Part shown: piece by piece, positions 6,445 through 57,691 of the stretch | Layout of the letters: each line of letters opens with the position of its first letter | How positions within the stretch are numbered: the stretch's first letter is position 1 | Assembly (NCBI RefSeq): GCF_041262565.1 | Contig: NZ_JBGCCJ010000001.1 | Coordinates: 2,046,001-2,110,000, forward strand | Length of the DNA stretch: 64,000 nt | Direction of reading: 5' to 3' | Source: Leifsonia sp. EB41 | GTDB lineage: Bacteria > Actinomycetota > Actinomycetes > Actinomycetales > Microbacteriaceae | Notes under the pieces: model-generated | Told to the model about the DNA's origin: nothing | The model's database searches: none | Seen by the model: the letters and a program-made list of their open reading frames with translations, nothing else | Made by a program: the position numbers and the translations under genes

Positions 6445-7455
6445 TCAGCCGAGGGGCACGTTGTTGTCGCTTGGGACGCCCGGAAGTGACAACGACGTGC
6501 CCTTCGATGGCTCGAGGGTGGTGGAGGTGGGTGGGGTGGTGGGGGCGGGCGTCACTGGGTCGGCCCGGACAAGCGCGATGCCGCCCAGGATCAGGACTCC
6601 GCCGACCAGCTGCAGCGCGTTCAGCGACTCTCCCAGCAGCAGCCACGCGTAGAACGTCGCCGCCACGACCTCCAGCAGCCCGGCGAACGAGCCCAGCCGG
6701 GAGCCCAGCATGTTCGCGGCGGTGATGCCCGACGCGTAGGCCAGCGCGGTCGCGAGGGCACCGACCACGGCGAGGGGAACCCACCACGGCGCAGAGCCGC
6801 CGAAGAGCTCCACATCGCGGGTGCTCACGACGAACGGCAGCAGGCCGGTGGCGCTCACCGCGGCCAGCGCCACGCCGCCGGCGAGCAGTCCGCCCGCAGC
6901 GAGGGCGACGGGCGGGAGGCCGTCGGACGGGCGCGCGGCGATGATGTAGTACCCGGCGCAGCCGAGCATCGCGGTCACCGCGAGGGCGATTCCGACGAGG
7001 TCGAGCGGCTTTCCGCCGCCGGGCGAGACGACGAGCAGCAGGCCGGCGATCGCGACGGCCGAGCCGGCGAGGACCACGGCCTTCGGCGCCCGGCGGGTGC
7101 GCGCCCACACGAACAGCACCAGCACCACCGGCGCCAGGTACTCGATCAGGATGGCCGTCCCGACCGGGATGCGCTCGATCGCGGCGAAGTACAGCACCTG
7201 CGTTCCGGCCACGCCGACCAGCGCCATCCCGAGCAGGCGCCAGCGTCCCCGCCAGAGCGAGGCCCAGCGGCCGCGGAGGGCGAGGATCGCGAACGGCGCC
7301 AGCACGACGCCGCCGATCAGCACGCGCGCGGTGACCGCGGCGGCCGGCGACCAGCCGCTCTCCAGCAACGGCTTGATGAACGCTCCGGACAGGCCGAACG
7401 ACGCGGCGGCGACGACCGCGATGAGGAGACCCCTGGATGTCTGGTTCTGTGCCAT
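6445..7455 (-). CDS. EamA/DMT-family membrane exporter
   Basis: This 336-residue protein is a drug/metabolite-superfamily transporter. It contains two EamA halves, each with about five membrane helices (about residues 8-140 and 150-285), and small polar loops rich in glycine and proline. Family members export amino acids, nucleosides or drugs; the substrate here is unknown. The ATG at 7455 follows a good ribosome site (AGGAGG). The last roughly 20 residues (through SLPGVPSDNNVPLG) are encoded by a dispersed palindrome, so the ancestral stop was probably earlier. It is divergent from a CGNR regulator that may control it. Confidence 0.88.
   Translation of the reverse strand: MAQNQTSRGLLIAVVAAASFGLSGAFIKPLLESGWSPAAAVTARVLIGGVVLAPFAILALRGRWASLWRGRWRLLGMALVGVAGTQVLYFAAIERIPVGTAILIEYLAPVVLVLFVWARTRRAPKAVVLAGSAVAIAGLLLVVSPGGGKPLDLVGIALAVTAMLGCAGYYIIAARPSDGLPPVALAAGGLLAGGVALAAVSATGLLPFVVSTRDVELFGGSAPWWVPLAVVGALATALAYASGITAANMLGSRLGSFAGLLEVVAATFYAWLLLGESLNALQLVGGVLILGGIALVRADPVTPAPTTPPTSTTLEPSKGTSLSLPGVPSDNNVPLG
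6451..6505. repeat. Dispersed palindrome family A, copy 1
   Basis: Arms at 6451-6472 and 6484-6505 pair at 19 of 22 positions around an 11-base loop. The head GAGGGGCACGTTGTTGTC and its complement recur at 15783, 55724 and 57629. This copy encodes the last residues of the EamA transporter, whose stop lies at 6445. Confidence 0.85.
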
Positions 7456-7512
7456 CGGAGGCCTCCTGCCTGCGTGCGTCGGGCGGGTCCGGGCGGCGCG
7501 GAAAGGGCCGGC

Positions 7513-7542
7513 GTCAGGACCGTAGTGGGTTATGATCCTGAC
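7513..7542. promoter_or_regulatory. Inverted repeat in the EamA/CGNR divergent promoter region
   Basis: GTCAGGA (7513-7519) and TCCTGAC (7536-7542) form perfect 7-base arms 16 bases apart. A TATGAT -10-like box at 7531-7536 overlaps the right arm. It could be the CGNR protein's operator; no other evidence is available. Confidence 0.4.
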
Positions 7543-7571
7543 GTTAGTACTCGGCAAGGTAAGGAGTCAAC

Positions 7572-8138
7572 TTGCATTTTGCCCCTGACGCGGAGGACGC
7601 CCTCCAGTTCGCCGTGGTCCTGTGCAACACCGTCCCCACGGCCTCCCGCAGCGGGGAGGACGAGCTCGCCACCCCGGCGCAGCTCGTCGCGTTGATGCAC
7701 GAGAACCAGTACTCGGGACGCATCGACGGCGACGAGGCCGAGCTCCGGCAGGTGCACGAGACCCGGGACCGCCTCCGCCGGGCCTGGACGATGGAGCGCG
7801 ACGCCGCCGTCGCCGAGGTGAACGCCATGCTCGCCGACGCCCACGCCTCCCCCTACCTGATGCGGCACGACGGCTTCGACTGGCACCTGCACGCCACGTC
7901 ACTGGACGCGCCGCTCGCCGAACGCATCCGGGTGGAGGTCGCGCTCGCGCTGGTGGACGTCATCCGCTCCAACGAGAACGACCGGCTGCGGAGCTGCGCC
8001 GCGTTCGACTGCGACGGGCTGGTGCTCGACCTGTCCCGCAACGGGTCCAAGCGGTTCTGCAGCGTGCGGTGCGGCAACCGGATGAACATGGTGGCGTTCC
8101 GGGCGCGGCAGGAGGCGGACGAGGCGCACGCGAGGTGA
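7572..8138 (+). CDS. CGNR zinc-finger (ABATE-type) regulator
   Basis: This 188-residue protein belongs to the ABATE/CGNR family of predicted stress-responsive transcription regulators. The N-terminal part (residues 1-130) is the ABATE domain. The C-terminus has a four-cysteine zinc finger: two cysteines in SCAAFDCDG and two in RFCSVRCGNR, followed by the basic tail MNMVAFRARQ. The start is a TTG at 7572 with an AAGGAG ribosome site six bases upstream. Family members commonly sit opposite EamA-type transporters, as here, suggesting they control the exporter. The effector is unknown. Confidence 0.88.
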   Translation: MHFAPDAEDALQFAVVLCNTVPTASRSGEDELATPAQLVALMHENQYSGRIDGDEAELRQVHETRDRLRRAWTMERDAAVAEVNAMLADAHASPYLMRHDGFDWHLHATSLDAPLAERIRVEVALALVDVIRSNENDRLRSCAAFDCDGLVLDLSRNGSKRFCSVRCGNRMNMVAFRARQEADEAHAR

Positions 8139-8204
8139 GAGGATGGCGGACAGACCGATCCACCCCGAGGAGCCGCCGTGCGCCATGACGACGGAGGACA
8201 CGCA

Positions 8205-9254: not shown

Positions 9255-9282
9255 GGTCAGCGCCGGGTAGGGGCAGCGCCGG

Positions 9283-9852: not shown

Positions 9853-9893
9853 GCGGGTCTCCTGTAACGTTCGCAGGCACAATCGTTTGTGTC

Positions 9894-9918
9894 GCTGATG
9901 ATCAGCCTACGCTATGAT
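9894..9918 (+). promoter_or_regulatory. MarR promoter with palindromic operator
   Basis: GCTGATGATCAGC (9894-9906) is a perfect palindrome around a central G. It lies immediately before a TATGAT -10 box (9913-9918), which ends six bases before the ATG at 9925. A second inverted repeat, CACAA-TCGT-TTGTG, lies at 9878-9891. The layout fits MarR binding between the isochorismatase-like gene and its own gene. Confidence 0.55.
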
Positions 9919-9924
9919 TTCTGC

Positions 9925-10410: not shown

Positions 10411-10429
10411 AGTTCGCTCGGCTCCGCCG

Positions 10430-10828: not shown

Positions 10829-10896
10829 GAGACCCGAGTGTAGACCCGGGGTTGCACATCGCCACCGCACAGGTGAACGATTACCTGAGCATTCCT

Positions 10897-10924
10897 CATG
10901 CTGGGGCGATCCGGCTCCAGCATG
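10897..10924. promoter_or_regulatory. Inverted repeat upstream of the secreted-protein gene
   Basis: CATGCTGG (10897-10904) and CCAGCATG (10917-10924) are perfect 8-base arms separated by 12 bases. They end 26 bases before the ATG at 10951. The repeat could be a regulator site or a 5' leader hairpin; the sequence does not decide. Confidence 0.4.
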
Positions 10925-10950
10925 CACCGATGCGTGACAAAGGAGTAGGC

Positions 10951-11733: not shown

Positions 11734-11752
11734 CGCCGTCGTACGACAGGAA

Positions 11753-14761: not shown

Positions 14762-15007
14762 ATGGGGCGAGCACGGGAGCGGGCCTTGACCACCCGCAGC
14801 CGCGCACGCGAGCGCCGCCGCTTCGCCCAGGACGTGCAGCGCACCATCGCCGCACTGCCCGAGGACGAGGACGCGCTGCTCCGGGTGGAGGCCGCCCTCC
14901 GCTCTGCGCCGGGGTTCGCAGCAGTTCCCCCGCTCTGGTGGCTGTTCCGCCGCCCGGCCACCGACCTGGGGGCCGAGAAGCCCGGCCGCACGAAGGAGAA
15001 GCGATGA
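14762..15007 (+). CDS. Small hypothetical basic protein
   Basis: This frame of 81 residues is basic at both ends (RARERALTTRSRARERRR; GRTKEKR) with a central acidic helix (LPEDEDALLRVEAALRSAPG) and the motif PPLWWLFRRP. It matches no family I know. It is packed between the cupin (four-base gap) and the SDR gene (ATGA overlap), which supports translation. A TTG at 14786 is an alternative start. Confidence 0.55.
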   Translation: MGRARERALTTRSRARERRRFAQDVQRTIAALPEDEDALLRVEAALRSAPGFAAVPPLWWLFRRPATDLGAEKPGRTKEKR

Positions 15008-15780
15008 CCGACAGCCCGCTCACCGTCCTCGTCGTCGGCGCCACCGGCAGCATCGGCCGGCTCGTCGTGGCCGAGGCTCTACGGCGCGGGCACCGCGTGA
15101 GGGCGCTGGTGCGCGACACAGCCAGGGCCGAGAGCATCCTGGCGGCCTCTACCGAGCTCGTCGTCGGCGACCTCACCCGGCCGGCGACGCTCGGCGCTGC
15201 GGTGGAGGGCGCCGACGCCATCGTCTTCACCCACGGCTCCGGCACCCGGGAGACCGACGTGCGCGACATCGACTACGCCGGTGTCGTCAACACGCTCGCC
15301 GCTGCGGCGGGACGTCCTGTCCGGATCGCCCTCATGACCGCCGTCGGCACGACGCGGCCCGGCGCTCCGTACGCGGCATGGAAGCGCCGCGGCGAGCGCC
15401 TGGTCCGCGCGAGCGGGAACCGCTACACGATCGTGCGGCCAGGCTGGTTCGACTACAACAGCGCGGCCCAGCGCGCGATCGTCTTCCGCCAGGGCGACAC
15501 CGCCCAGTCCGGCACGCCGGCGGACGGCGTCATCGCCCGGGACGAGATCGCCCGCGTGCTGGTCGACAGCCTCACGAACCCGGCGGCGGACCGCCGGACT
15601 CTGGAGCTCGTGGCGACCGACGGTCCCGAACTGGACGACCTGACACCGCTGTTCGCGGCGCTCACACCGGATGCGCCCGGCGCTCTGGACGGCGCGCTCG
15701 ACGCGGCGACCGCCCCGCCGGCGGCCGAGCCGCAGCGCTTCCGCGACGACCTCGCAGCGCTCGGGGCCCTCCACACCTAG
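15004..15780 (+). CDS. NAD(P)-binding SDR-type oxidoreductase (NmrA/atypical SDR)
   Basis: This 258-residue protein begins with a Rossmann nucleotide-binding motif (LVVGATGSIGRLV, about residues 9-21) and continues as an atypical short-chain dehydrogenase: VVGDLTRPATL, GADAIVFTHGSG, and the C-terminal TIVRPGWFDYN. The active-site YxxxK is represented by YAAWKRRGE. It may be a reductase or an NAD(P)-sensing protein. Its ATG overlaps the preceding stop (ATGA at 15004-15007), so it is the last gene of the XRE-cupin operon. A family A palindrome follows directly after its stop. Confidence 0.88.
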   Translation: MTDSPLTVLVVGATGSIGRLVVAEALRRGHRVRALVRDTARAESILAASTELVVGDLTRPATLGAAVEGADAIVFTHGSGTRETDVRDIDYAGVVNTLAAAAGRPVRIALMTAVGTTRPGAPYAAWKRRGERLVRASGNRYTIVRPGWFDYNSAAQRAIVFRQGDTAQSGTPADGVIARDEIARVLVDSLTNPAADRRTLELVATDGPELDDLTPLFAALTPDAPGALDGALDAATAPPAAEPQRFRDDLAALGALHT

Positions 15781-15782: not shown

Positions 15783-15839
15783 CGAAGGGCACGTTGTTGT
15801 CGCTTTCCCGTGCGGGAAGCGACAACAACGTGCCCTTCG
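15783..15839. repeat. Dispersed palindrome family A, copy 2
   Basis: Arms at 15783-15805 and 15817-15839 are a perfect 23-bp inverted repeat (CGAAGGGCACGTTGTTGTC head), extended by a further CCCG/CGGG pairing past one bulged T. It fills the gap between two convergent genes. It is far longer than a normal terminator and matches copies at 6451, 55724 and 57629. Confidence 0.9.
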
Positions 15840-15855: not shown

Positions 15856-16518
15856 TTACTTGGCCGGGGGCATCAGCACGGAGTCGATCAGGTAGACCGT
15901 GGCGTTGGCGGTGTGCACGCCGCCGCAGATGACGTTGGCGTCGTTCACCTTGAGGTTGTCGCCGGAGCCGGTGACCGTGACGGTCCCGCCCTCGACGGTC
16001 TTGTGGGTGCCCACGATATCCTTCGGCGAGAGCTGGCCGGGGATGACGTGGTAGGTGAGGATGCTGGTCAGCGTCGGAGCGCCGGCGGGCGTCTTGAGCG
16101 TGTTGATCGTCGCCGGGTCGATCTTCTTGAACGCGTCATCGACGGGGGCGAACACCGTGAACTGGCCGCTGTTGAGGGTGTCGACCAGGTTCACGCTCGG
16201 GTTGAGCTTGCCGGAGACGGAGGCGACCAGGGTCGTCAGCAGGGGGTTGTTGCTCGCCGCGGTGGCGACCGGGTCCTGGGCCATCCCCTGGACCGAGCCG
16301 GCGCCGGAGGGCACGGCCTTCGCGTAGGTGGCGCAACCGGGGCCGACCAGGTCGGCGGCCGGGTCCATCGACGCCGAGGCCGACGGGGAGGACGACTTCA
16401 TGGAAGAGCTGCCGGTCGTCGAGGCCGTACCGGCTCCGGACGAACAGGCGGTGAGCGCGAGGGCGGCGGCGGCGAGGATGCCGGCGGCGGCGAGGCGGGT
16501 GCGAGTTGTGGATCGCAT
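15856..16518 (-). CDS. Fasciclin-domain lipoprotein
   Basis: This 220-residue surface lipoprotein has a signal peptide ending in the lipobox LTAC (cysteine at about residue 25), a Ser-rich linker (residues 26-52) and a single fasciclin (FAS1) domain at about 85-215, with [20 protein letters not shown] and [18 protein letters not shown]1 domains mediate adhesion; mycobacterial MPT70/MPT83 are relatives. The ATG is at 16518. It is divergent from a molybdopterin oxidoreductase, a pairing seen in other actinobacteria, sometimes under an ECF sigma factor. No sigma factor is present here. Confidence 0.92.
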
Positions 16519-36480: not shown

Positions 36481-36543
36481 CATCGAGGGGGCGCAACACG
36501 CCGCGTCGTCGCGCGGGAGGCGGCGTGTTGCGTCCCTTGGATG
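36481..36543. repeat. Palindrome family B, copy 1
   Basis: GAGGGGGCGCAACACGCCGC and its near-complement (36520-36543) form an inverted repeat of about 23 bp with a 15-base loop. The same head (GAGGGG then GCG..ACACGCCGC) occurs at 38726. It lies immediately after the LtrA stop (36545). Confidence 0.8.
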
Positions 36544-38725: not shown

Positions 38726-38780
38726 CCGAGGGGTCGCGACACGCCGCTGTCCGCGACGCGCGGCGGCGTGTCGCGTCCCC
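38726..38780. repeat. Palindrome family B, copy 2
   Basis: CGAGGGGTCGCGACACGCCGC (ending at 38747) pairs with GCGGCGTGTCGCGTCCCC (38763-38780). It lies between the convergent aldo/keto reductase and TetR genes and is a relative of the element at 36481. Confidence 0.8.
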
Positions 38781-38789
38781 TGTGGACGA

Positions 38790-47003: not shown

Positions 47004-47049
47004 GCCGGAGGCATCAGGTAACACCCACCGACAGAAGGAAGCAGAAATC

Positions 47050-48744
47050 GTGTCCAGACTCTCTCGTCTGCGCCGCCACCCGGTCGCCTCGGCCGGCCTG
47101 GCGCTGCTCGGCGCGGCGACCCTCGTAGGGGCAGGCGTCCTCGCCATCGCCCCCGCGTCGGCGTTCCCGGCCCATGGGACCCCCGACCACTCCAACCAGA
47201 CCCAGACCCCGATCAAGCACCTCGTCGTGATCTTCGACGAGAACATCTCCTTCGACCACTACTTCGGCACCTACCCGAAGGCGGCCAACACCGACGGCAC
47301 GACGTTCACCGCCGCCGCCGGAACCCCCGCGGTGAACACCCTCGCCAGCAGCGGGACGCTCACCAGCAACCCGAACCTCTACGCCCCGCAGCGGCTCACC
47401 CCGGCGCAGGCCCTCACCTGCGACCAGAACCACGGCTACGCCGCCGAGCAGGCCGCAGTGGACAACGGCAAGATGGACATGTTCGTCCAGAAGACCGAGA
47501 CCGACACCTGCACCGGCGCGTTCGGCCAGCCGGGCCTGGTCATGGACTACTACGACGGCAACACCGTCACCGGGCTGTGGAACTACGCGCAGAACTACTC
47601 GATGAGCGACAACATGTGGGACACCACGTTCGGCCCGTCGACCCCCGGCGCGCTCAACCTGATCTCGGGCCAGACCCACGGCGGCACCGCCTACGACCCG
47701 AAGACCGGGGCGGTCCTCCCGGCCTCCACGTCGGTCCAGTCGAAGAACGCCGCGGGCGTCGGCACGGTGATCGGCGACCCCGACCCCGTGTACGACGACT
47801 GCTCGGACGCCGACCACACCTCCACCTCGGCGCTGGTCGGCATGGCCGGCAAGAACGTCGGTGACCTCCTCAACGCCCGCGGCGTGAGCTGGGGCTGGTT
47901 CCAGGGCGGCTTCACGCCGACCACCGCGTGGAACGGCCAGGCCGGCAGCTACGCCAAGTGCGACGCGACCACCGCGAACATCGGCGGCGCGACGCCGAAG
48001 GACTACTCGCCGCACCACAACCCCTTCTCGTACTACAAGTCCACGTCGAACCCGCACCACCTCCCGCCGACGTCGACCCAGGCCATCGGTCACACCGACC
48101 AGGCCAACCACCAGTACGACCTGACCTCGTTCGACAAGGCCGTGGCGGCGAACAACCTCCCTGCCGTCTCGTTCCTCAAGGCCCCGGAGGCCCAGGACGG
48201 TCACGCCGCCTACTCCGACCCGCTGGACGAGCAGAAGTTCCTCGTCAACGAGATCAACGCCCTCCAGAAGTCGAAGGACTGGAAGAGCACCGCGGTCGTC
48301 GTCACCTACGACGACTCGGACGGCTGGTACGACCACGTCGCGCCGACCGTGGCCAACGGCTCGAACGACGCAGCCGTCGACTCGGCGGTCTGCACCAACC
48401 AGACGAAGATCGCCGGTGGCTACGCGGACCGCTGCGGCCCGAGCCAGCGCCTGCCGTTCCTCGTCGTCTCGCCGTGGGCCGCTCAGAACAAGGTCGACCA
48501 CACCGCGATCGAGCAGACCAGCCCGCTGAAGTTCATCGAGGACAACTGGGGCACGAGCCGGATCGGCGACGCGTCCTTCGACGCCCGCGCCGGCTCGCTG
48601 AACGGGCTGTTCGACTGGAAGCACCCGCAGCAGCGCGAGGTGCTGCTCGACCCGGCCTCCGGCGCTGTCACACAGGTCGTGCCCACGCACGGCCGCAGCG
48701 GTGACGCGGACGACCAGGGGCAGAACGACAACAGCCAGCACTGA
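47050..48744 (+). CDS. Secreted phosphoesterase (phospholipase C / AcpA family)
   Basis: This 564-residue enzyme has a signal peptide (SAGLALLGAATLVGAGVLAI, cleavage about residue 37) and the alkaline-phosphatase-like fold of bacterial phospholipases C and acid phosphatase AcpA. The metal/nucleophile motif is HLVVIFDENISFDHYFGTYP (about 57-76). Later metal ligands are in VTYDDSDGWYDHVAP. It probably releases phosphate from phospholipids or other esters outside the cell. It follows efeB by 46 bases, so it may be co-transcribed. A perfect terminator hairpin follows. Confidence 0.9.
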   Translation: MSRLSRLRRHPVASAGLALLGAATLVGAGVLAIAPASAFPAHGTPDHSNQTQTPIKHLVVIFDENISFDHYFGTYPKAANTDGTTFTAAAGTPAVNTLASSGTLTSNPNLYAPQRLTPAQALTCDQNHGYAAEQAAVDNGKMDMFVQKTETDTCTGAFGQPGLVMDYYDGNTVTGLWNYAQNYSMSDNMWDTTFGPSTPGALNLISGQTHGGTAYDPKTGAVLPASTSVQSKNAAGVGTVIGDPDPVYDDCSDADHTSTSALVGMAGKNVGDLLNARGVSWGWFQGGFTPTTAWNGQAGSYAKCDATTANIGGATPKDYSPHHNPFSYYKSTSNPHHLPPTSTQAIGHTDQANHQYDLTSFDKAVAANNLPAVSFLKAPEAQDGHAAYSDPLDEQKFLVNEINALQKSKDWKSTAVVVTYDDSDGWYDHVAPTVANGSNDAAVDSAVCTNQTKIAGGYADRCGPSQRLPFLVVSPWAAQNKVDHTAIEQTSPLKFIEDNWGTSRIGDASFDARAGSLNGLFDWKHPQQREVLLDPASGAVTQVVPTHGRSGDADDQGQNDNSQH

Positions 48745-48760
48745 CCCCCTCGGGGGTGGG

Positions 48761-48794
48761 ACGCCGGGTGCGCAGGTCGCTGCGCACCCGGCGT
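48761..48794. terminator. Strong bidirectional terminator
   Basis: ACGCCGGGTGCGCAG (48761-48775) pairs perfectly with 48780-48794 around a GTCG loop, then TTTCTCC on the plus strand. It lies between the convergent phosphoesterase and esterase genes. Confidence 0.9.
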
Positions 48795-48804
48795 TTCTCC
48801 TGTG

Positions 48805-49699
48805 TCAGGCGAAGTGGGACGCGACGAACGCGAGCTGGGCGGGCGCTTCGCGCCGCCAGTAGTCGAGGTCGTGGCCTCCCGGGGTGAAGCCGCCGGCCGG
48901 CCGCGGGTGGAGGCCGGCGACGTAGTCCTGGACGTTCGGGCAGAAGCCGTCGCCGGTGCCGCACTCGACGCGCAGCGGGATGCCGGCGAGCGTCGCCTCG
49001 TGGCCGAAGGGCGTGTTCGCGGCGAAGTCGGCTGCTCCGTCGAAGGCGCCGTGAGCGGCCTCCTTCGCGGTGTGCCAGATCGCGGGGCTCTCCGCGACCG
49101 CCGACGCGACCCGCGCGGCGCCCATCAGGCCCGCGAGGTGGAGGGCGCCGTAACCGCCCATCGACCAGCCGAGGAACGCGACCTTCGTCGTGTCCAGACC
49201 GGCCTTCGCCAGGAGCGGGATGAACTCGTCGGTCAGCATCGCGGCCGCGTCCTCCCCGGTGGCGCGGCGATGCCAGTAGGTGTTGCCGCCGTCCGCCGAC
49301 GCGATGGCGAACGGCCGCGCGCCGTGTTGCACCGCCTGGGCGAGGAAGCGGTCGAGTCCGAGTCCCGAGCCGAACGCCGAGCCGTGGTCGCCGCCGAAAC
49401 CGGGCAGTGCGATCAGGACCGGGAGGGCGTCGCCCGGCTTCGACCCCGGCGGGTAGCTCACGGTCCAGCCGACGGTCGCGCCGAGCCGCGCGGCGGAGAC
49501 GAAACGAACCGCTGACGGCCAGGCCTGGAGCGACCGCGGGGATGCGGCCGGGCGTGCCGTTGAGGCCCAGCAGCCGGTGCAGTTCCGAGCGGCCGGGCAG
49601 GAGCCGCTCCTCCACGGCGAACGCCGCGCCTCCGCCGAGGACGCCGAGGGCGGCGACACCGATCCCGGCCCCGATCAGGGTGCGACGCGCGACGCTCAT
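48805..49699 (-). pseudogene. Alpha/beta-hydrolase esterase interrupted by a frameshift
   Basis: From the ATG at 49699 (TAGGGT six bases upstream) one frame encodes a Tat-like or anchor sequence and AVEERLLPGRSELHRLLGLNG to GLAVSGSF. The continuation VSAARLGATVGWTVSYPPGS lies in another frame and runs to the stop at 48805. One extra base near 49502-49504 explains the break. The second part is a full esterase (D-like/PHB depolymerase-like) with the nucleophile elbow FLGWSMGGYGALHLAG and histidine in TPGGHDLDYWR. It is a recent pseudogene or a sequence error. Confidence 0.82.
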
Positions 49700-49718
49700 G
49701 CGCTCACCCTAACGGCGC

Positions 49719-49749
49719 TTGACCCTCACACCGTGTCAGGCTGGATCGT
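49719..49749 (+). promoter_or_regulatory. MerR-type promoter and operator
   Basis: TTGACC (49719-49724) is followed after 19 bases by GATCGT (49744-49749), the long spacing typical of MerR-controlled promoters. The spacer holds the inverted repeat CCTCACAC-C-GTGTCAGG (49724-49740). The MerR-family gene starts at 49760, so autoregulation is likely. Confidence 0.65.
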
Positions 49750-49759
49750 GGCCTCCAAC

Positions 49760-50584
49760 ATGTACACCATCGGAGAATTCGCCGCGATCGGGCGGGTGAG
49801 CGTCCGGATGCTGCGGCACTACGACGCCATCGGCCTGCTGCCGCCGGCGCGCGTGGACGAGCACAGCGGCTACCGCTCGTACTCGGACGCGCAGCTGGCG
49901 AGCCTGCTGCTGATCGTCGAGCTGCGCCAGCTCGGGATCGGCCTCGACGCGATCGCCGCCGTGCTCGCGTCCGACGACCCGCGGCCCGCCCTCACGGCGG
50001 CGCTGCGGCAGCGCCGGGCCGAGCTGGCGGCGGGCATCGCCGACGACCGCAACCGGCTCGACCGCCTGGAGCGGCGCCTCCGCCTACTGGAAGGAACAGA
50101 GATCATGACGACTCCCGTCGAATACCGCCCGCTGGAACCCGCCACCGTCTACGCCGTCAGCGGCACCGCGCCCGGGATGGGCCCGGAGCTGGTCGGCCCG
50201 ATGGTCGGGCCGCTCATCGGCTCGCTCGACCAGGCGCTGGAGGCCGCGGGACGCCCGCTGCTGGCGCCGTCCGTGTTCTGGTACGAGGCCAGGGACGACG
50301 AGCGGCTGGAGGTCCACATCTCGTACCCGGCCGAGACCCCGCCGCGACCCGGCGACGGCTACGAGGTGGTCGACCTCCCTGCGGTCCCGCTCGCGGCGAC
50401 GCTGCTGCACCGCGGCGACATGACCGGCATCGGCGACTCGTGGATGGCCCTGATGGAGCGCCTCGCGGCCGACGGCTACCACGTCACCGGCCCCACCCGC
50501 GAGGTCTACCTCGAGGCCACCGGCCACACCCCCGGCCCCGACTGGCTCACCGAACTCCAGGCCCCCGTAGCCCCCACCTCCTGA
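49760..50584 (+). CDS. MerR-family regulator with GyrI-like effector domain
   Basis: This 274-residue regulator has the MerR winged helix (YTIGEFAAIGRVSVRMLRHYDAIGLLPP, about residues 2-29, in two parts), a dimerising coiled coil ending LERRLRLLEG (about 115) and a C-terminal GyrI/AraC-type effector domain (about 120-270), like BmrR and TipA-type drug sensors. It probably activates a promoter when a hydrophobic compound binds. No transporter is adjacent; the divergent broken esterase is the only neighbour. An open frame continues upstream but the MerR N-terminus fixes the start. Confidence 0.92.
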   Translation: MYTIGEFAAIGRVSVRMLRHYDAIGLLPPARVDEHSGYRSYSDAQLASLLLIVELRQLGIGLDAIAAVLASDDPRPALTAALRQRRAELAAGIADDRNRLDRLERRLRLLEGTEIMTTPVEYRPLEPATVYAVSGTAPGMGPELVGPMVGPLIGSLDQALEAAGRPLLAPSVFWYEARDDERLEVHISYPAETPPRPGDGYEVVDLPAVPLAATLLHRGDMTGIGDSWMALMERLAADGYHVTGPTREVYLEATGHTPGPDWLTELQAPVAPTS

Positions 50585-50589
50585 ACGAA

Positions 50590-50727
50590 CGCCGAGGCGG
50601 CGCAAACTCGCCCCGAATCCGCCGAGACGGCACACAATTCGCCGCCTCGATGGTGCGGGACCAGCCACCGAGGCGGCGCAAAGTCGCCGGAAAAGCGCCG
50701 AGGCGGCGGAGAATGCGCCGTCTCGGG
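50590..50727. repeat. Palindrome family C: CCGAGGCGGCGCAAA units
   Basis: Forward units start at 50592 (CCGAGGCGGCGCAAA), 50668 (identical) and 50698 (CCGAGGCGGCGGAGA). Inverse units include GCCGCCTCG at 50641 and CGCCGTCTCGG near 50716. They pair into at least two hairpins and fill the gap between the convergent MerR and araA genes. Confidence 0.8.
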
Positions 50728-50783
50728 GAGGTGGGACCCGGCCGCCGACGCCGATGACATGCCGGCGGCCGGGGGTCTGGGGG

Positions 50784-52301
50784 CTAGAGGCCGCGGGCGA
50801 GGCGGTAGTAGGCGGCGTTCCAGTCGAGCTCTCGGGAGAAGGCTCGGAGAGTGGTGTCCTCGTCGATGATGAGCAGCTCGGTTCGGGCCATGCGGGCGAA
50901 GTCCTCGAACGCCTGGATGCCGACCGCGGTGCTCATCACGGTGTGGTGCGCGGCGCCGGCCTCCAGCCAGGCGGTCGCGGACGTGGTGAAGTCCGGGGCG
51001 GGCTTCCACACGGCGCGGCCGACCGGGAGCTTCGGCAGCGGGGCGGTCGGCTCCACGACCTCCACGACGTTCGCCACGAGCCGGAAGCGGTCGCGCATGT
51101 CCGACAGCGCCACGACCACGGCCGGACCCGGGTCGGCCGTGAAGACCAGGCGCACCGGGTCGTCCTTGCCGCCGATGCCGAGCGGGTGGACCTCCAGGGT
51201 CGGCTTCGCGCTGCTGAGCGACGGTGAGACCTCCAGCATGTGCGCGCCGAGAATGCGCTCGTCGCCGGGCGTCAGGTCGTAGGTGTAGTCCTCCATGAGG
51301 GACGCGCCGCCGGGGAGTCCTGCGCCCATGACGTTCGCGGCGCGGACCAGGATGGCCGTCTTCCAATCGCCCTCGGCGCCGAAGCCGTAGCCCTCCGCCA
51401 TGAGGCGCTGCACGGCGAGGCCCGGGAGCTGCTTCAGCGCACCGAGGTCCTCGAAACTGGTGGTGAAGGCGCCGAAGCCGCCCTCCTCCAGGAAGGAGCG
51501 CAGCCCGACCTCGATCGCCGCGCCGTCGCGCAGCGACTGGTGACGCTCGCCCCCGCTGCGCAGCTCGGGAGCCACGTCGTACAGGTCCTCGTACTCGGCG
51601 ACCAGCGCGTCCACAGAAGCGTCGGAGGCGGCGGCGACCGCGTCGGCCAGCTCGTTCACGCCCCAGGTGTTGACCTGGACGCCGAACCGCAGCTCGGCCT
51701 CGGTCTTGTCGCCCTCCGTCACCGCCACGAAGCGCATGTTGTCGCCGAAGCGGGCGAGCTTCAGGGATCGGGTGGCCGCGTGGCCGGCGGCGGCGCGCGT
51801 CCAGGTGCCGATGCGCTGCGTGACGGCCGGGTCGCTGACGTGACCGACGACGGTGGTGCGCGGCACCCCGAGTCGGGTCTGGATGTAGCCGAACTCCCGG
51901 TCGCCGTGCGCGGCCTGGTTGAGGTTCATGAAGTCGAAGTCGATCTCGCCCCACGGCAGCTCGACGTTCGCCTGGGTGTGGAAGTGCAGCAGCGGCTTCT
52001 GGAGGGCGTCCAGGCCGGCGATCCACATCTTGGCGGGGCTGAAGGTGTGCATCCACGCGACAAGACCGATCACGGCGTCGTCGGCGTTTGCCTCCAGGAC
52101 GATGCGGCGGATGGCGTCGGCGTCGGTCAGCACCGGCTTCCAGACCACGCGCACCGGGACGTCGGCCGAGGCGCCGAGCCGGTCGCTGATCCCGCGGGAC
52201 TGCTCGGCGACCTGCGCGAGCGTCTCCGGTCCGTAGAGGTGCTGGCTGCCGGTGAGGAACCAGACCTCGTAGTGGTCGAGGGAGGTCGTGAGCTTCGGCA
52301 T
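50784..52301 (-). CDS. araA: L-arabinose isomerase
   Basis: This 505-residue enzyme converts L-arabinose to L-ribulose. It matches AraA from end to end: [17 protein letters not shown] at the start, [35 protein letters not shown], the metal-site region [16 protein letters not shown] and EVHPLGIGG. It is the last gene of the araB-araD-araA operon; its ATG shares one base with the araD stop (TGATG at 52301), so translation is coupled. Confidence 0.96.
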
Positions 52302-53002
52302 CAGGCGAGGGATCCTTCCGGGTTCTGTCCGTAGACGTTCTGGTAGCGGTCGAAGAGACTGTCGATGGCGTCCTGCGGGAGGGGGACGAGCGGGCCGCCC
52401 TGCCGTGCGATATGCACGGTGCGGGCGACGTCCTCGGTCATGACCGCGGCCTTGACGGCGTCGCGTGCGTCGCGGCCGATCGTGAAGACACCGTGGTTCT
52501 GCATGAGCACGGCGCGGCTGCGGTGCCCGTCGAGCGTGGCGACGATGCCGCGGCCGATGGAGTCGTCGCCGATGATCGCGAACGGCCCGACCGGGATCTC
52601 CCCGCCGAACTCGTCGGCCATCGCGGTGATGACGCACGGGATCGCCTCGGCACGTGCGGCCCATGCGGTGGCGTAGGTGGAGTGGGTGTGCACGACGCCG
52701 CCGACCCCGGGCATGCTCCGGTAGACGTAGGCGTGCGCGGCGGTGTCGGAGGAGGGGGACCGGTCACATCCGGCCGAGCCGGGGACGACCTCGCCGTCGA
52801 GGGTGCAGAGGATCATGTTCTCCGGCGTGAGGTCGTCGTAGTCGACGCCGCTCGGCTTGATGACGAAGAGGTCCTCGCCGGGGACGCGGCCGGAGACGTT
52901 CCCGCCGGTCCAGACGACGAGGCCGTAGCGGACCAGTTCGGCGTGGAGGGCGGCGACCTGCTCGCGGGTGCGGCGGGTGGCGGGGGACTCCGCGGTGGTC
53001 AT
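52301..53002 (-). CDS. araD: L-ribulose-5-phosphate 4-epimerase
   Basis: This 233-residue class II aldolase-family enzyme makes D-xylulose 5-phosphate, the entry to the pentose phosphate pathway. Zinc ligands are in [12 protein letters not shown] and the later [10 protein letters not shown]; phosphate-binding motifs [10 protein letters not shown] and [12 protein letters not shown] are present. It overlaps araB by four bases (ATGA) and araA by one. Confidence 0.95.
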
Positions 53003-54615
53003 CGGGTGGCTCCCTTCAGGGCAATGGACGCGACCGCGGCGCGCTCGGCGGCCAGGCCGTCGTGGTACCGGGCCAGGTACGCGGCGAAGCCGGCCACGTC
53101 GTCCGCGTCCGGCTCCACGGTCTCGACGGTGAAGCCTCCGAACACGTCGCGATCGAGATACACATCGAGTGGCGTGCCGGAGCCGGCTGCGCGGAGGTAC
53201 GCGGCGAGCACGGCGGCGCCCCACGCCCCGCCCTCCGACGCGGTGTCGGCCACGGACACCGGAGCGTCCAGCGCCCCGGCCAGGAAGCGCTGCGCGACGC
53301 CGGCGGTGCGGAACATCCCGCCGTGCGCGAACATCCGGTCGAGGGCCGCGCCCTCCGCGTGCAGCACGCGCATCCCGAGGGCGAGCGTCCCGAAGACGCC
53401 GTAGAGCTGGGCGCGGGCGAAGTTGGCGAGGGTGAGGCGGCTGTCGGGCGTGCGGACGACCAGCGGGCGCCCCTCGTCCAGGCCGGTGATCGGCTCGCCG
53501 GCCAGGTAGTTGTAGGCGAGGAGGCCTCCCGCATCGGGCTCGCCGTCGAGGGCCTCGCGGAACAGCGTCTCGAAGACCGCGTCGGAGGCGACCGGCACGC
53601 CGGCGGCCTCCGCGAACCTCCCGAACAGCCCGGCCCACGCCGACAGCTCGCTCGCGCCGTTGTTGCAGTGCACCATCGCGACGGCGTCGCCGGCGGGCGT
53701 CGTGACCAGGTCGAGCTCGTGGTGCGCCTCGGCGAGCGGGCGCTCCAGGACGACCATCGCGAAGATGCTCGTGCCCGCGCTGACGTTGCCGGTGCGCGGG
53801 GCGACCGAGGCGGTGGCGACCATCCCGGTGCCGGCGTCGCCCTCCGGCGGGCACAGCGGGATGCCGGGCTGGAGCTCGCCTGACGGGTCGAGGAGGAGCG
53901 CGCCCGCCGGTGTGAGATCCCCGGCGGGTCCCCCGGCGACGAGGACCTCGGGAAGGAGGTCGAGCAGGGCAGGAAGCGTCGCCCTGTCCCGCACGAGGCC
54001 GTCGTAGCGGGCGACCAGCTCGGCGTCGTAGGTCTTCGTCGCCGAGTCGATCGGGAACATCCCCGACGCGTCCCCGACCCCGAGCACGCGGCGGCCGGTG
54101 AGGCGCTCGTGCACGTGGCCGGCGAGCGTGGTGATCGAGTGCAGGCGCGCAAGATGGGGCTCGGCGTCCAGGACGGCCTGGTGGAGGTGCGCGATCGACC
54201 AGCGCAGCGGGATGTTGACGGCGAACAGAGCGCTGAGCTCGGCGCTCGCCTGGCCGGTCGTCGTGTTGCGCCAGGTGCGGAACGGCGCCAGCAGTTCCCC
54301 CGCGGCGTCGAAGGCGAGGTAGCCGTGCATCATCGCGGAGACGCCGATGGCGCCGAAGGTCTGCGGCCGGACGCCGTGGCGCGCCTCCGCGTCGGCGACG
54401 AGCGCGGCGTACGCGGCCTGGAGGCCGGACCAGACGGCGTCGAGCGGGTAGGTCCAGACGCGGTCGGCGAACGCGTTCTCCCAGTCGTGGGAGCCGACGG
54501 CCAGGACGGTCGCGGGGTCGTCGGCGTCGACCAGGCAGGCCTTGATCCGGGTGGAGCCGAGCTCGATGCCGAGGGCGGTGCGTCCGGCGACGAGGGCGTC
54601 GCGCTGGGTGTTCAT
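52999..54615 (-). CDS. araB: Ribulokinase
   Basis: This 538-residue FGGY-family kinase phosphorylates L-ribulose. It begins with the nucleotide-binding ALGIELGSTRIKACLVD and has GNVSAGTSIFAM, YNYLAGEPITGLDEG and the second signature region FAHGGMFRTAGVAQRF. It is closer to the GntK/XylK-like FGGY kinases than to E. coli AraB, but the adjacent araD and araA define the role. It is the first gene of the operon; the ATG at 54615 has GGAGTGAGAG upstream and a perfect palindromic operator lies 17 bases before it. Confidence 0.9.
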   Translation of the reverse strand: MNTQRDALVAGRTALGIELGSTRIKACLVDADDPATVLAVGSHDWENAFADRVWTYPLDAVWSGLQAAYAALVADAEARHGVRPQTFGAIGVSAMMHGYLAFDAAGELLAPFRTWRNTTTGQASAELSALFAVNIPLRWSIAHLHQAVLDAEPHLARLHSITTLAGHVHERLTGRRVLGVGDASGMFPIDSATKTYDAELVARYDGLVRDRATLPALLDLLPEVLVAGGPAGDLTPAGALLLDPSGELQPGIPLCPPEGDAGTGMVATASVAPRTGNVSAGTSIFAMVVLERPLAEAHHELDLVTTPAGDAVAMVHCNNGASELSAWAGLFGRFAEAAGVPVASDAVFETLFREALDGEPDAGGLLAYNYLAGEPITGLDEGRPLVVRTPDSRLTLANFARAQLYGVFGTLALGMRVLHAEGAALDRMFAHGGMFRTAGVAQRFLAGALDAPVSVADTASEGGAWGAAVLAAYLRAAGSGTPLDVYLDRDVFGGFTVETVEPDADDVAGFAAYLARYHDGLAAERAAVASIALKGATR

Positions 54616-54631
54616 GGTTCTCTCACTCCGT

Positions 54632-54645
54632 TGTGACCGGTCACA
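54632..54645. promoter_or_regulatory. Palindromic operator in front of araB
   Basis: TGTGACCGGTCACA is a perfect 14-bp palindrome with the central CG typical of LacI-family sites. The adjacent LacI-type gene (54685-55683) is the obvious regulator. It lies between the predicted -10 region and the araB ribosome site, so binding would block transcription. Confidence 0.75.
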
Positions 54646-54684
54646 TCTAATGGAACGAGTGTAGACGATCCTCCGCGGGACGTG

Positions 54685-55683
54685 TCAAGCCGAGTCGCGG
54701 ACCACCAGCACCGGCGCCACCGGAGCGTCGAACGCCAGCTCGCGTCCCTCGATCAGCGCCACCAGGCGCGCGACCCCGCGGCGGCCGAGCTCGGCGAAGT
54801 CCTGCCGCACGGTCGTCAGCGGCGGCGCGAAGTACGCGGCCTCGGGGATGTCGTCGAAGCCGACGACCGCGAGGTCCTCCGGCACCCGGCGTCCCCGTTC
54901 GCGCGCCGCGTGCAGCAGCCCGAGCGCCATCTGGTCGTTCGACGAGAACACGGCGGTCAGCTCGGGGTCGTCGAGGAGCTCCGCGCCGATCGCCGCACCC
55001 GACGCGGCCGTCCAGTCGCCATCCCGTGAGACCACAGGGTCCCGCCCGGCATCGCCCAGCTCGGCCAGGTAGCCGTCGCGGCGCGCCCGCGCCTCCGACC
55101 AGTCGCCGGGGCCGCTCAGGTGCGCGATCCGAGTGTGGCCGCGCGCGAGCAGGTGGCGGGTGGCCAGGCGGGCGCCCTCCACCTGGTCGACGAACACACC
55201 GTCGTCGCCCGCGATCCCCGCTCCGTGCAGAGTGACGGACGGGACCGCCAGCGAGAGCGCAGTCATGGCCTCCTGCACGGCCCGCTGCGGGGCGATGACG
55301 ATGACGCCCTCCACCGACTGCGCACCGAGATGGTCGACGGCCGCGCCGAGGTCCACCGGGTCGATGGAGGCCGCGTGGGCAACGGTCACGAAGTATCCCG
55401 CGTCGCGCGCCGCCTGCTCGACGGCGTCGATGCTGGAGGCCGGCCCGAACAGCGAGGACGCCGACGACGCCAGCACCCCGATGGTGCGCGAGCGCGCGGT
55501 GGTGAGCATGCGCGCGGCGCGGTTCGGGCGGAAGTTGAGATCGGCCATCGCCGTGAGCACCCGCTCACGCGTCTCCGGTCGGATACTCGGGTGGTCGTTG
55601 AGCACGCGTGACACGGTCTGCCGCGAGACACCCGCCGCGGCCGCGACCTCCCGCACGCCCGGCGCGCGCCCGCTCTCACTCAC
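54685..55683 (-). CDS. LacI-family repressor of the arabinose operon
   Basis: This 332-residue regulator has a LacI helix-turn-helix (VREVAAAAGVSRQTVSRVLN, about residues 10-29), the hinge FRPNRAARML, and an effector domain with VVGFDDIPEAAYFAPPLTTV. I prefer the GTG at 55683 to the one at 55689 because TAGGGT ends six bases before it (leaderless). It is immediately upstream of araB in the same direction and probably releases the araB operator in the presence of L-arabinose or an oligomer. Functionally it is an AraR analogue of the LacI type. Confidence 0.9.
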   Translation of the reverse strand: MSESGRAPGVREVAAAAGVSRQTVSRVLNDHPSIRPETRERVLTAMADLNFRPNRAARMLTTARSRTIGVLASSASSLFGPASSIDAVEQAARDAGYFVTVAHAASIDPVDLGAAVDHLGAQSVEGVIVIAPQRAVQEAMTALSLAVPSVTLHGAGIAGDDGVFVDQVEGARLATRHLLARGHTRIAHLSGPGDWSEARARRDGYLAELGDAGRDPVVSRDGDWTAASGAAIGAELLDDPELTAVFSSNDQMALGLLHAARERGRRVPEDLAVVGFDDIPEAAYFAPPLTTVRQDFAELGRRGVARLVALIEGRELAFDAPVAPVLVVRDSA

Positions 55684-55723
55684 ATCCACACCCTACTGGC
55701 CGCCGCTCGCACCCGCCGCCACT

Positions 55724-55788
55724 CCGCCGAGGGGCACGTTGTGGCCCTTATGCCGGCGTTTTAGGGGCGTTCACGTGCCCCTCGGCGG
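55724..55788. repeat. Dispersed palindrome family A, copy 3 (variant core)
   Basis: Perfect 16-bp arms CCGCCGAGGGGCACGT (55724-55739) and their complement (55773-55788) share the family A head. The core differs from the other copies: TTGTGGCCCTTATG and TTTTAGGGGCGTT replace the TTGTTGTC core. It lies after the NUDIX stop (55791) and before the LacI-type gene's promoter. Confidence 0.8.
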
Positions 55789-55790
55789 CG

Positions 55791-56195
55791 TCAGTCGATG
55801 AGGTCGAGGCCGGCGAGGCGCTCGAGGACCGCGTGCCCGGCCGGCGGGCACCGATCGGCGTCGGCGGTCGTCACCCAGTGCACCGCGTCCACCTCGCCGG
55901 AGGGCGCCGGCTCGGCGTCCGTCTCGGCGCGGAACACGCGCATGTGCACCTGCCGGCCGTCCGGCTCCCCGTGGGCCTGCGTCCGCACCTCGAACAGCTC
56001 GGTCAGCGCGTCGACGTCGAGCGCGAGCGCGACCTCCTCCTCGGCCTCCCGCGCCGCCGCCTCGGCCGCGGTCTCGCCCGGGTCCACCTTGCCGCCCGGC
56101 ATGTAGTAGACGTCGCGCCCGCGGGAGGTCACCATCAGCACGCGCCGGTCGCGCACCACCGCGACGGCCGACACCAGCAGCGGAGCCAGCGTCAT
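55791..56195 (-). CDS. NUDIX hydrolase
   Basis: This 134-residue NUDIX-fold enzyme hydrolyses a nucleoside diphosphate linked to another group. The Nudix box GGKVDPGETAAEAAAREAEEEV (about residues 36-57, in full GX5EX7REUXEEXGU-like form) is intact. The substrate is unknown; MutT-like cleaning of oxidised nucleotides is one possibility. The ATG at 56195 overlaps the stop of the SRPBCC gene by four bases (ATGA), so the two form an operon. Confidence 0.92.
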   Translation of the reverse strand: MTLAPLLVSAVAVVRDRRVLMVTSRGRDVYYMPGGKVDPGETAAEAAAREAEEEVALALDVDALTELFEVRTQAHGEPDGRQVHMRVFRAETDAEPAPSGEVDAVHWVTTADADRCPPAGHAVLERLAGLDLID

Positions 56196-56638
56196 GACTC
56201 GACCAGCATCTTGAGCCGGCGGAGTCCCTTCTCGAAGTCGGGGCCGACCAGCTTGTCCAGGTTGAAGAACCGGCTGAAGAACGTCCGCGCGCTCTCCATC
56301 CGCCAGATCACGCGCGTGCGGTCGCCCTCCTGCGTGAGCAGGAAGCGCACATGGCTGCTCGACTTGAACGGTCGCGTGAAGTCGAGCGCGACGCCGACGC
56401 CGTCCGGCTGCACGGACTCGATCCGCATCTTCCCCGCCCCGGCCTTGCGGTTGCCGCTCCACTCGTAGGTCGAGCCGACCGCGCCTGGCTCGCCGGTGTA
56501 CTCGCGCTTCAGCGCGGGATCCATGCCCTCCCACGGCGACCAGTCCACCCAGCGCGGCAGCTCCGCGATGTGGGGCAGCAGTGCCTCGGGCGTGGTCTGG
56601 ATGGTGTCGGTGCGTTCCACGACGATGGTTCCGGCCAT
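56192..56638 (-). CDS. SRPBCC-family (polyketide cyclase-like) protein
   Basis: This 148-residue protein has the START/SRPBCC ligand-binding fold: ALLPHIAELPRWVDWSPWEG near the N-terminus, then GAVGSTYEWSGNRKAGAGKM and TRVIWRMESA. Such proteins bind or process hydrophobic molecules; the ligand is unknown. TAAGGT ends six bases before the ATG at 56638 with no ribosome site (leaderless). It is followed by, and overlaps, the NUDIX gene. Confidence 0.88.
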   Translation of the reverse strand: MAGTIVVERTDTIQTTPEALLPHIAELPRWVDWSPWEGMDPALKREYTGEPGAVGSTYEWSGNRKAGAGKMRIESVQPDGVGVALDFTRPFKSSSHVRFLLTQEGDRTRVIWRMESARTFFSRFFNLDKLVGPDFEKGLRRLKMLVES

Positions 56639-56671
56639 GCGCACACCTTAGCGGCATGGCATGATCGGGCT

Positions 56672-57607
56672 GTGACCGGGCGAACGATGCTCCTCGACAG
56701 CGCATCCCTCTACTTCCGCGGCTTCTACGGCGTCCCCGACACGGTGCGCGCACCGGACGGGACTCCCGTGAACGCGATCCGCGGCTTCCTCGACATCATC
56801 GCGAAGCTGGTGACCGACTACGGACCTGAGTCGCTGGTGGCCTGCTGGGACGACGACTGGCGGCCGCGCTGGCGGGTCGACCTCATCCCGAGCTACAAGG
56901 CGCACCGCGTGGCGCAGGAGGTCCCCGGCGGCGTCGACGTGGAGGAGGTGCCGGCCGAGCTCGTGGTGCAGGTGCCGGTGATCCGGGAAGTGCTGGCCGC
57001 CCTCGGCATCGCGATCGTCGGCGCGGCCCAGCACGAGGCGGACGACGTGATCGGCACGCTCGCCACGGTCACGCCGGGGCCGGTGGATGTCGTGACCGGC
57101 GACCGCGACCTGTTCCAGCTCGTCGACGACGGCCGGGACGTGCGGGTGGTCTACACGGCGCGCGGGATGAGCAACCTCGAGGTGCTGACGGACGCGACGA
57201 TCGTGGCCAAGTACGGCATCCACGCGAACCAGTACGCGGACTTCGCGGTCATGCGCGGCGACTCCTCGGACGGACTGCCCGGCGTCGCCGGCGTCGGCGA
57301 GAAGACGGCGGGCGCGCTGCTCGCCGAGTACGGCGACCTGAGCGGGATCGAGGCGGCCGCCGCCGACCCGGCGAGCGCGATGAAGCCGGCGCTGCGGACC
57401 AAGTTCGCCGCCGCCGTCGACTACCTCTCCGTCGCGCCGACCGTCGTGGAGGTCGTCCGCGACCTCCCGCTCGGCGACGTCGACGCCCGCCTGCGCGCCC
57501 CGGGCGACGAGCAGCGCGCGGCCCTCGAGTCCCTCGGCGAGCGCTGGGCCCTCGGCGGCTCCCTCGACCGCTGCCTCGCCGCGCTCACCGCCGCCGCCTC
57601 CGCGTAG
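56672..57607 (+). CDS. 5'-3' exonuclease (FEN/Pol I N-domain type)
   Basis: This 311-residue nuclease is homologous to the N-terminal domain of DNA polymerase I and acts on 5' flaps. Acidic metal-binding motifs are LLDSASLYFRGFYG, EADDVIGTLA and VVTGDRDLFQLVDD. The helix-hairpin-helix RGDSSDGLPGVAGVGEKTA follows at about residues 195-213. It lacks a polymerase domain. The GTG at 56672 is preceded by CATGAT six bases upstream; the ATG at 56687 is an alternative. It is divergent from the SRPBCC gene. Confidence 0.93.
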   Translation: MTGRTMLLDSASLYFRGFYGVPDTVRAPDGTPVNAIRGFLDIIAKLVTDYGPESLVACWDDDWRPRWRVDLIPSYKAHRVAQEVPGGVDVEEVPAELVVQVPVIREVLAALGIAIVGAAQHEADDVIGTLATVTPGPVDVVTGDRDLFQLVDDGRDVRVVYTARGMSNLEVLTDATIVAKYGIHANQYADFAVMRGDSSDGLPGVAGVGEKTAGALLAEYGDLSGIEAAAADPASAMKPALRTKFAAAVDYLSVAPTVVEVVRDLPLGDVDARLRAPGDEQRAALESLGERWALGGSLDRCLAALTAAASA

Positions 57608-57628
57608 CCCCACCCCCTCCTCCAAGAG

Positions 57629-57691
57629 CGCCGAGGGGCACTTTGTTGTCACTTTTCGCGTGCAGAAGTGACAACAACGTGCCCTTCGGCG
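57629..57691. repeat. Dispersed palindrome family A, copy 4
   Basis: CGCCGAGGGGCACTTTGTTG and the following TCACTT pair with 57666-57691, with single mismatches, around an 11-base loop. It lies between the convergent exonuclease and SGNH-GAF genes. It shares head and TTGTTGTC core with the copies at 6451 and 15783. Confidence 0.88.

Follow-up and report, generated by a model that had tools for sequence, protein, structure and literature searches.

What are the four long palindromes that lie at gene 3′ ends in a 64,000-nt stretch of the Leifsonia sp. EB41 genome? This whole stretch is called the window below. An earlier note described them as one dispersed family and took them for either elements resembling repetitive extragenic palindromes (REPs) and their doublets (REPINs), or a co-opted terminator module. 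We find that the family extends over the whole genome as a palindrome of 55 bp. It is probably a bidirectional 3′-end module, a terminator or a boundary, with fixed geometry, and one of several interchangeable palindrome families of Leifsonia. The four copies are present as described, with the following 55-nt cores:

6451..6505, no strand: family A palindrome with arms at 6451-6472 and 6484-6505 and centre at 6473-6483 (E 8e-11)
15784..15838, no strand: family A palindrome of 55 bp at a convergent junction (E 4e-12)
55729..55783, tandem junction: family C member or A/C hybrid of 55 bp (E 6e-4 with the A model)
57633..57687, convergent junction: family A palindrome of 55 bp (E 9e-11)

The longer bounds given earlier are this core plus flanking C/G or CGCC/GGCG. 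Over 23 bp the match between the arms at 15783 is indeed perfect, and the inverted-repeat search gives this copy 26-nt arms that are 96% complementary. The variant at 55724 had been read as a conserved head with a changed centre. That reading is corrected here: its outer GAGGGGCACGT is as in family A and its right arm is as in family C, with one mismatch to the C half-site.

The head of the palindrome was searched over the whole genome (G000; one contig, 4,162,015 bases, of which the window is 2046001-2110000) with up to three mismatches. This gave 62 forward and 52 reverse matches, compared with 1 and 1 for a reversed-pattern control. The identity between copies is therefore beyond chance, as had been claimed (114 matches versus 2). 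One hundred of the 114 places were listed and form 51 listed head clusters; in all 49 of these that show both heads, the head starts are spaced by 37 nt. A covariance model (R1) based on 46 copies, without the 55729 variant and five others, found 52 loci at E <= 0.002, every one 55 nt long, and one further partial match at E = 0.46. The motif is thus common outside the four window sites. Fifty loci score at least 57 bits on both strands and make up family A. The other two, 2258043 (47 bits) and 2101729 (37 bits; window 55729), are C-like, and the right arm of each is a family C half-site with one mismatch. These two are omitted from the column, half-site, tandem-count and flank statistics and from the dialect comparison of G000 with G008.

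Family A consists of a 22-bp arm GAGGGGCACGTYGTTGTCRCTT and its complementary 22-bp arm around a free 11-bp centre. Over the 50 copies, arm columns hold 1.7-2.0 bits of information, apart from positions 3, 12 and 19 and those that mirror them, and the content drops to 0.4-1.0 bit in the centre. The arms end in GAGG or GAAG and in CCTC or CTTC, which pair with each other. Just outside the arm, C occupies position -1 in 98% of 100 half-sites, preceded by a weaker CGC. Either strand folds with a mean energy of about -41 kcal/mol.

The copies lie behind gene ends. Gene positions came from a codon-model caller trained on the long open reading frames (ORFs) of G000, which was also applied to the relatives. 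Of the 52 copies 33 are convergent, 18 tandem and one (2258043) was called divergent. A + strand ORF ends 13 nt before this last element, so there is no clearly divergent copy in G000. The placement at gene 3′ ends seen in the window therefore holds genome-wide. As background, 539 junctions have gaps of 55 bp or more and 106 of them are convergent, which gives a binomial p of 7e-12 for 33 of 52. In 76 of 84 cases a facing gene end is separated from the copy by 0-35 nt (median 18 nt). The statement that all four window copies directly follow a stop codon is right for three of them. The copy at 6451 overlaps the end of an EamA-family gene: it encodes the last ~19 codons, with the TGA 3 nt beyond the palindrome, and the same is found in Leifsonia sp. 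Leaf336 (G008). The EamA C-terminus translated from the palindrome (..KGTSLSL....SDNNVPLG) is in the same frame in G000 and G008, with a differing centre.

A second hairpin is scarce where a copy is present. It occurs at 1 of 33 convergent junctions with the element and at 47 of 166 without it (Fisher p = 0.0013), in a comparison that spans junctions of unequal spare length.

Are these simply ordinary intrinsic terminators, alike by chance or composition? A stable hairpin immediately 3′ of genes is what an intrinsic terminator shows, and both the strong stem and the place fit. However, the arms are near-identical in 50 copies, the head gives 114 matches against 2 in the control, the length is constant, and no U-tract follows. 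As an account of the sequence identity this explanation is refuted, and as a whole it is scarcely credible. In the window, an Rfam search gave no family above threshold. The "co-opted terminator module" of the earlier note is upheld for place, for the scarcity of other hairpins and for the exchange described below, and it fails for a canonical U-tailed terminator.

A second kind of terminator is made of paired DNA-uptake sequences in Neisseria and Pasteurellaceae. Like the present family, these are lineage-specific repeats that form terminator hairpins (PMC1852404). They differ in having half-sites of 9-11 nt, about a thousand copies or more, and T-enriched tails (PMC1852404). In Leifsonia only ~50 copies are found, not a thousand, and the half-site is 22 bp, not 9-11. 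Lone half-sites are rare as well: 3 of 105 heads (up to three mismatches) lie outside palindromes. This count covers slightly overlapping stretches of G000 that total 1.09 Mb and were picked to cover every A-model locus. An uptake function is, on this evidence, very improbable.

How are the arms constrained? Within G000 the two arms vary independently at the polymorphic positions 3, 12 and 19 (Fisher p 0.33, 1.0 and 0.25). Covariation is weak, its score being equalled by 28 of 500 shuffles and the number of paired cells by 36 of 500. Single arms fold weakly, with a mean of -1.9 kcal/mol (200 arm-strands, 50 copies); the single-arm consensus gives -3.3 kcal/mol on one strand and 0 on the other. 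If RNA pairing matters, G-U should be preferred over A-C among mismatches on the transcribed strand of tandem copies. The counts are 12 G-U versus 14 A-C in G000, 3 versus 4 in G008, 4 versus 1 in L. virtsii (G001) and 0 versus 1 in G011; there is no overall preference, in a test that is weak since a mismatch can be accommodated in a stem of about -41 kcal/mol. Given the independent variation of the arms and the similar numbers of A-C and G-U, the arm appears to act, within a species, more as a separately read sequence than as one strand of an RNA helix.

Between species the picture is different. Alignment A2 holds 16 copies drawn from 11 genomes. Both sides change in 15 of its 23 pairs, 97.3% of cells are paired, and the covariation score is 0.484 versus 0.149 in shuffles. 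Copies entered A2 if they were 55 nt long and had a recognisable outer arm; two are C-type copies of G020, and L081-L090 and L095 were left out. Clade dialects occur within the same frame of 55-56 nt, for example GAGTTGCACGTCGTGGTCGCTAT in L. virtsii and GAGGTTCACGTCGTTGCGCTCAT in L. aquatica H1aii (G002). Over the longest aligned stretch of the DUF4032 locus, identity to G000 is 89.5% for Leaf336, 84.9% for L. virtsii and 84.4% for H1aii. The A sequence is common to G000 and Leaf336, and L. virtsii and H1aii are without it. The dialects thus look as if they follow clades. Even within one dialect, G000 and G008 differ (100 versus 36 half-sites): G at position 19 is found in 14% versus 64% (p = 4e-8) and A at position 3 in 18% versus 56% (p = 5e-5), with no difference at position 12 (p = 0.32).

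Matches to the A model at E <= 0.01 were found in at least 21 of 60 genomes (G000 included), 18 of 28 Leifsonia and 3 of 32 others, in a search that scored limited numbers of candidates in each genome. When 150 genomes sampled from the family were searched at only 38 candidates each, G000 alone gave a match at E <= 1e-4. Two genomes from another family of the order carry palindromes of 54 nt (G059, locus L083) and 52 nt (G041, locus L085). Their inner arms, GTAGTTGTCGTTT and GTTGTTGTCGTTTT, resemble the inner arm of family A, and each genome gives four model matches with both strands counted.

Do the elements stay in place while the arms change? L. virtsii elements lie at G000 A-type positions in 4 of 18 cases by junction-spanning alignment, or in 7 of 18 if adjacency on one flank is accepted. 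In these orthologous copies the arms are typical of L. virtsii, and the centres are closer to the G000 copy than unrelated centres are. Centre likeness in orthologous versus unrelated pairs is 7.0 of 11 versus 5.31 for L. virtsii (7 pairs) and 7.25 versus 5.06 for G008 (8 pairs), one-flank cases included. With junction-spanning pairs only, it is 6.86 of 11 for G008 (7 pairs) and 8.0 of 11 for L. virtsii (4 pairs). Species-typical arms together with alike centres at orthologous junctions suggest descent in place with a family-wide shift of the arms, although the pairs are few and do not amount to proof.

Other junctions have exchanged one hairpin for another. Of 80 hairpins in relatives, 28 could be mapped to a G000 junction; this junction holds the same family in 16 of these cases, a different hairpin in 6 and no hairpin in 6. 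The "same family" count includes L103, which joins sub-families B and F. Five of the six other-hairpin cases are clear exchanges, all between L. virtsii and G000, and in the sixth (L120) the same hairpin has diverged. One gene pair has an A-type palindrome in L. virtsii and a B-type palindrome in Leifsonia sp. C5G2. At the junction of the DUF4032 and SpoU genes, G000 has a family A copy and Leifsonia sp. 71-9 has a different hairpin; this is a poor single-junction test because 8 of 12 related loci hold extra genes between the two. The exchange of unrelated hairpins at one junction argues that the junction needs a two-way stop or boundary. Place, fold and length are constant, and arm sequence and family are changeable.

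The fate of all 52 G000 copies was followed in G008. An A copy is found in 6 cases, no hairpin in 4 and another hairpin in 1; 6 are one-flank cases and 35 could not be mapped. Five one-flank cases were inspected. For three of them (1707795, 2061784 and 3898109), G008 has an A copy next to the same gene; for the remaining two, which are the C-like copies, none was seen there. In the few junctions compared, no clean 55-bp empty site with a target duplication was found; whole spacers differ.

Could the palindrome be a mobile, REPIN-like element spread by an enzyme other than a RAYT, the transposase associated with REPs? The gene-end position would then be a harmless site of insertion, and the arms would be kept by the needs of the enzyme. 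The anatomy is in favour. In REPINs, inverted conserved ends enclose a spacer that is less conserved in sequence but important in length (Bertels and Rainey 2011, PMC3116915), and here too the ends are inverted and conserved, and the centre varies in sequence but keeps its length. Elsewhere, REPs are likewise found downstream of convergent and unidirectional genes (PMC3733652), the same genes can have an element in one of G000 and G008 and lack it in the other, and several families coexist. However, Y1_Tnp/RAYT (PF01797) has no match in G000 or in any of the 28 Leifsonia genomes (G000 included), in a search that was positive in 5 of 14 control genomes. The RAYT/Y1-type transposase called for by the earlier note was therefore not found in this set, and association with a RAYT is rejected. 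Nor does an unpaired GTAG or CGTC tag occur at the palindrome ends. Centres are alike at 10 or more of 11 positions in 21 of 1326 G000 pairs (better of two orientations) and in 17 of 1872 single-orientation comparisons of G000 with G008. The G000 centres are no more alike within the genome than between genomes, and with no excess of near-identical centres in G000 no recent copying is seen. The positions common across dialects, at 4 of 18 L. virtsii elements (7 of 18 with one flank), also count against mobility. A plasmid search gave no match and viral contigs held no palindrome; the single viral contig with a half-site has no second arm nearby. A mobile element remains the main alternative, and we regard it as possible but doubtful. 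The earlier likeness to REP/REPIN elements survives as a matter of anatomy. The filing among them does not, for want of a RAYT, of a GTAG or CGTC tag and of recent copying. The family is terminator-like by position and REPIN-like by anatomy, and it fails a defining test of each: the U-tract in the one case, RAYT and tag in the other.

A third alternative is a binding site for a protein that organises the chromosome or its topology (of gyrase, nucleoid or boundary type), placed where positive supercoils meet, with termination incidental. Gyrase-binding BIMEs of E. coli are an analogue. Symmetric sites of constant length with independently varying half-sites, and the preference for convergent junctions, agree with this. 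On the other hand, 18 copies are tandem, and most of these follow the upstream stop closely, a placement that supercoiling alone would not call for, and at orthologous junctions the element is exchanged with other hairpins. We consider such a site quite unlikely.

We therefore return to the bidirectional 3′-end module. Transcription arriving from either side would be stopped, or its 3′ end fixed, at the palindrome. Each arm would be read by sequence by a trans-acting factor, as suggested by the free centre, the near-invariant arms, the constant spacing and the independence of positions 3, 12 and 19. This factor would most likely be a DNA-binding dimer that serves as a roadblock or as a termination aid, and a shift of its preference between clades may produce the species dialects. 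A more specific version, which we hold to be unlikely, is a protein-read two-way stop: a dimer on the 55-bp palindromes would block RNA polymerase from both sides, and the protein and its ~50 sites would shift together by clade. Several protein/site pairs (for families A/C, B/F, D and E) would then coexist in one genome. The system would also be a bacterial counterpart of eukaryotic roadblock terminators.

Several observations weigh against the module. First, no candidate factor was found. Second, G makes up 52% and T 19% of the 12 nt that follow the stem, with no U-tract; on 62 of 84 sides the first ten nt contain 0-2 T, and a terminator scan of window 45001-64000 gave nothing at the two copies there. 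The tandem mismatch counts given above for G000, G008, L. virtsii and G011 belong here, as does the unequal spare length of the junctions in the hairpin-exclusion comparison. Third, placement is not uniform. Eight of 84 facing gene ends lie elsewhere (one overlap, seven at 47-672 nt), copy 2142355 sits within a called gene, and 3 of 18 L. virtsii copies were provisionally called divergent. Fourth, in the sole G011 pair the centres are alike at 4 of 11 positions, no more than chance. Finally, the junctions of window 57633, 2127767, 3476591 and 2423180 have no hairpin between the same genes in G008, and three of these four have much shorter spacers there. The module is therefore dispensable at a given junction, and gain and loss are frequent.

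Compared with known systems, the Leifsonia family resembles REPINs and REP doublets in being dispersed and extragenic, with several groups per genome and a centre whose length is important (PMC3116915). Unlike them, it has no RAYT in 28 Leifsonia genomes and no demonstrated mobility, its arms pair over the whole 22 bp, and it has species dialects even at orthologous sites. GTAG and CGTC REPs lie behind stop codons, mostly of convergent or unidirectional genes, and CGTC REPs have no dedicated transposase (PMC3733652). The Leifsonia palindromes likewise lie near stop codons of mostly convergent or unidirectional genes, but those REPs have stems of 5-13 bp and an unpaired GTAG or CGTC tag (PMC3733652). 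The word "Actinobacteria" does not occur in PMC3733652. The 2025 REP survey (PMC12306157) tabulates three Actinomycetota, and Leifsonia does not occur in the part of it used here. The stem-loop sequence families of PMC2267715 are likewise repeated bacterial hairpins and include three high-GC Gram-positives; these are Corynebacterium and Mycobacterium, unlike Leifsonia, and "convergent" occurs 0 times in the text of that paper.

The nearest actinobacterial analogue appears to be TRIT of the RNIE paper (Gardner 2011), reportedly a repeated, sequence-conserved terminator-like hairpin of M. tuberculosis. Its name and use are mentioned in PMC3526491. A literature search, mostly without subscription journals, on Leifsonia palindromes, convergent-gene palindromes and terminator families gave nothing on this family among the matches listed.

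Dispersed palindrome families are usually ascribed to RAYT transposases or to plain terminators. In Leifsonia several such families coexist at gene ends, though a RAYT was not found in the 28 genomes of the genus. With position partly common between species and arm sequence changing family-wide, "place and fold" become separable from "sequence". The long-standing question of what keeps such repeats homogeneous within a genome becomes directly testable in a free-living actinobacterium, and the result bears on how convergent genes are separated in high-GC bacteria without U-tracts.

What other palindromes are there? A long-hairpin search of the 1.09 Mb of G000 recovered all 52 loci and 76 others, 66 of them outside called genes. 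A looser search gave, outside the A/C cluster, 56 convergent, 53 tandem and 7 divergent hairpins; the choice of stretches favours A-model loci, and rates for other families are biased. Several of these hairpins are multi-copy families. Family C (GAGGGGCACGTAAACGCCCCTAAAAC..., 55 nt) has its outer 11 bp in common with family A. Its half-sites give 42 and 47 matches genome-wide, versus 0 and 0 for the control, at 49 places, 40 of which have both arms. Further G000 hairpins have GGGACGCAACACGCCGC-like arms, among them two window copies near 36485 and 38728, or the arms TTCCGGAGTTGTGTACGC, ATTCGTGCCGAATGTCGC and TGACAGGACATGCCG. The Leifsonia genome G004 has no A-model match and has multi-copy palindrome families of its own (400 kb examined).

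The genes next to the four window copies are the following:

5307..6338, - strand: LacI-family regulator gene, next gene downstream (- strand) of the 6451 copy
6445..7455, - strand: EamA-family transporter gene, whose 3′ end is the 6451 palindrome
15004..15780, + strand: NAD(P)-binding protein gene, ends at the 15784 copy
15856..16368, - strand: Fasciclin-domain gene, ends at the 15784 copy
54685..55656, - strand: LacI-family regulator gene, next gene downstream (- strand) of the 55729 copy
55791..56195, - strand: NUDIX gene, ends at the 55729 copy
56687..57607, + strand: 5′-3′ exonuclease-domain gene, ends at the 57633 copy
57707..58912, - strand: GDSL-lipase-like gene, ends at the 57633 copy

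The 15784 copy lies 3 nt past the stop of the + gene and 17 nt from that of the - gene. The 55729 copy is 7 nt past the stop of its - gene, and the 57633 copy is 25 nt and 19 nt from its two flanking stops.

A regulon was considered and rejected, with no common function among the genes beside 15 A-model junctions (26 of 30 proteins scanned; the remaining four adjoin family B copies). In G000:C1:1074150-1076286, three family A copies lie within 2.1 kb, around an aldo/keto reductase gene and an endonuclease-like gene with a weak MTES_1575/DUF559 match. This endonuclease gene was rejected as a partner of the family because only one of its seven genome matches adjoins an A copy.

Some minor observations concern the other palindromes. 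A second window family, with arms AGGGG..CGCRACACGCCGC, lies at 36485-36537 and 38728-38782, at tandem and convergent junctions, and has related copies elsewhere in the genome and in relatives. Genome G004 carries two palindromes, CGAGATGCCAGTAACTGTCGCG... and TCGAGTCCGGACTTATGCACG..., that are 57-60 nt long and multi-copy; the latter has a directional CGCGACACGCCG core (loci L139, L140, L143, L146, L149, L150, L152, L154 and L155). Overlapping palindrome clusters of two other families are found in L014 at 170-350 (G000 ~398168-398350) and in L013 at 5529-5645 (~369028-369145), and they recall BIME clusters. At window 50622-50726 there is a 28-nt inverted repeat with a 49-nt spacer, 82% complementary and unlike the other palindromes.

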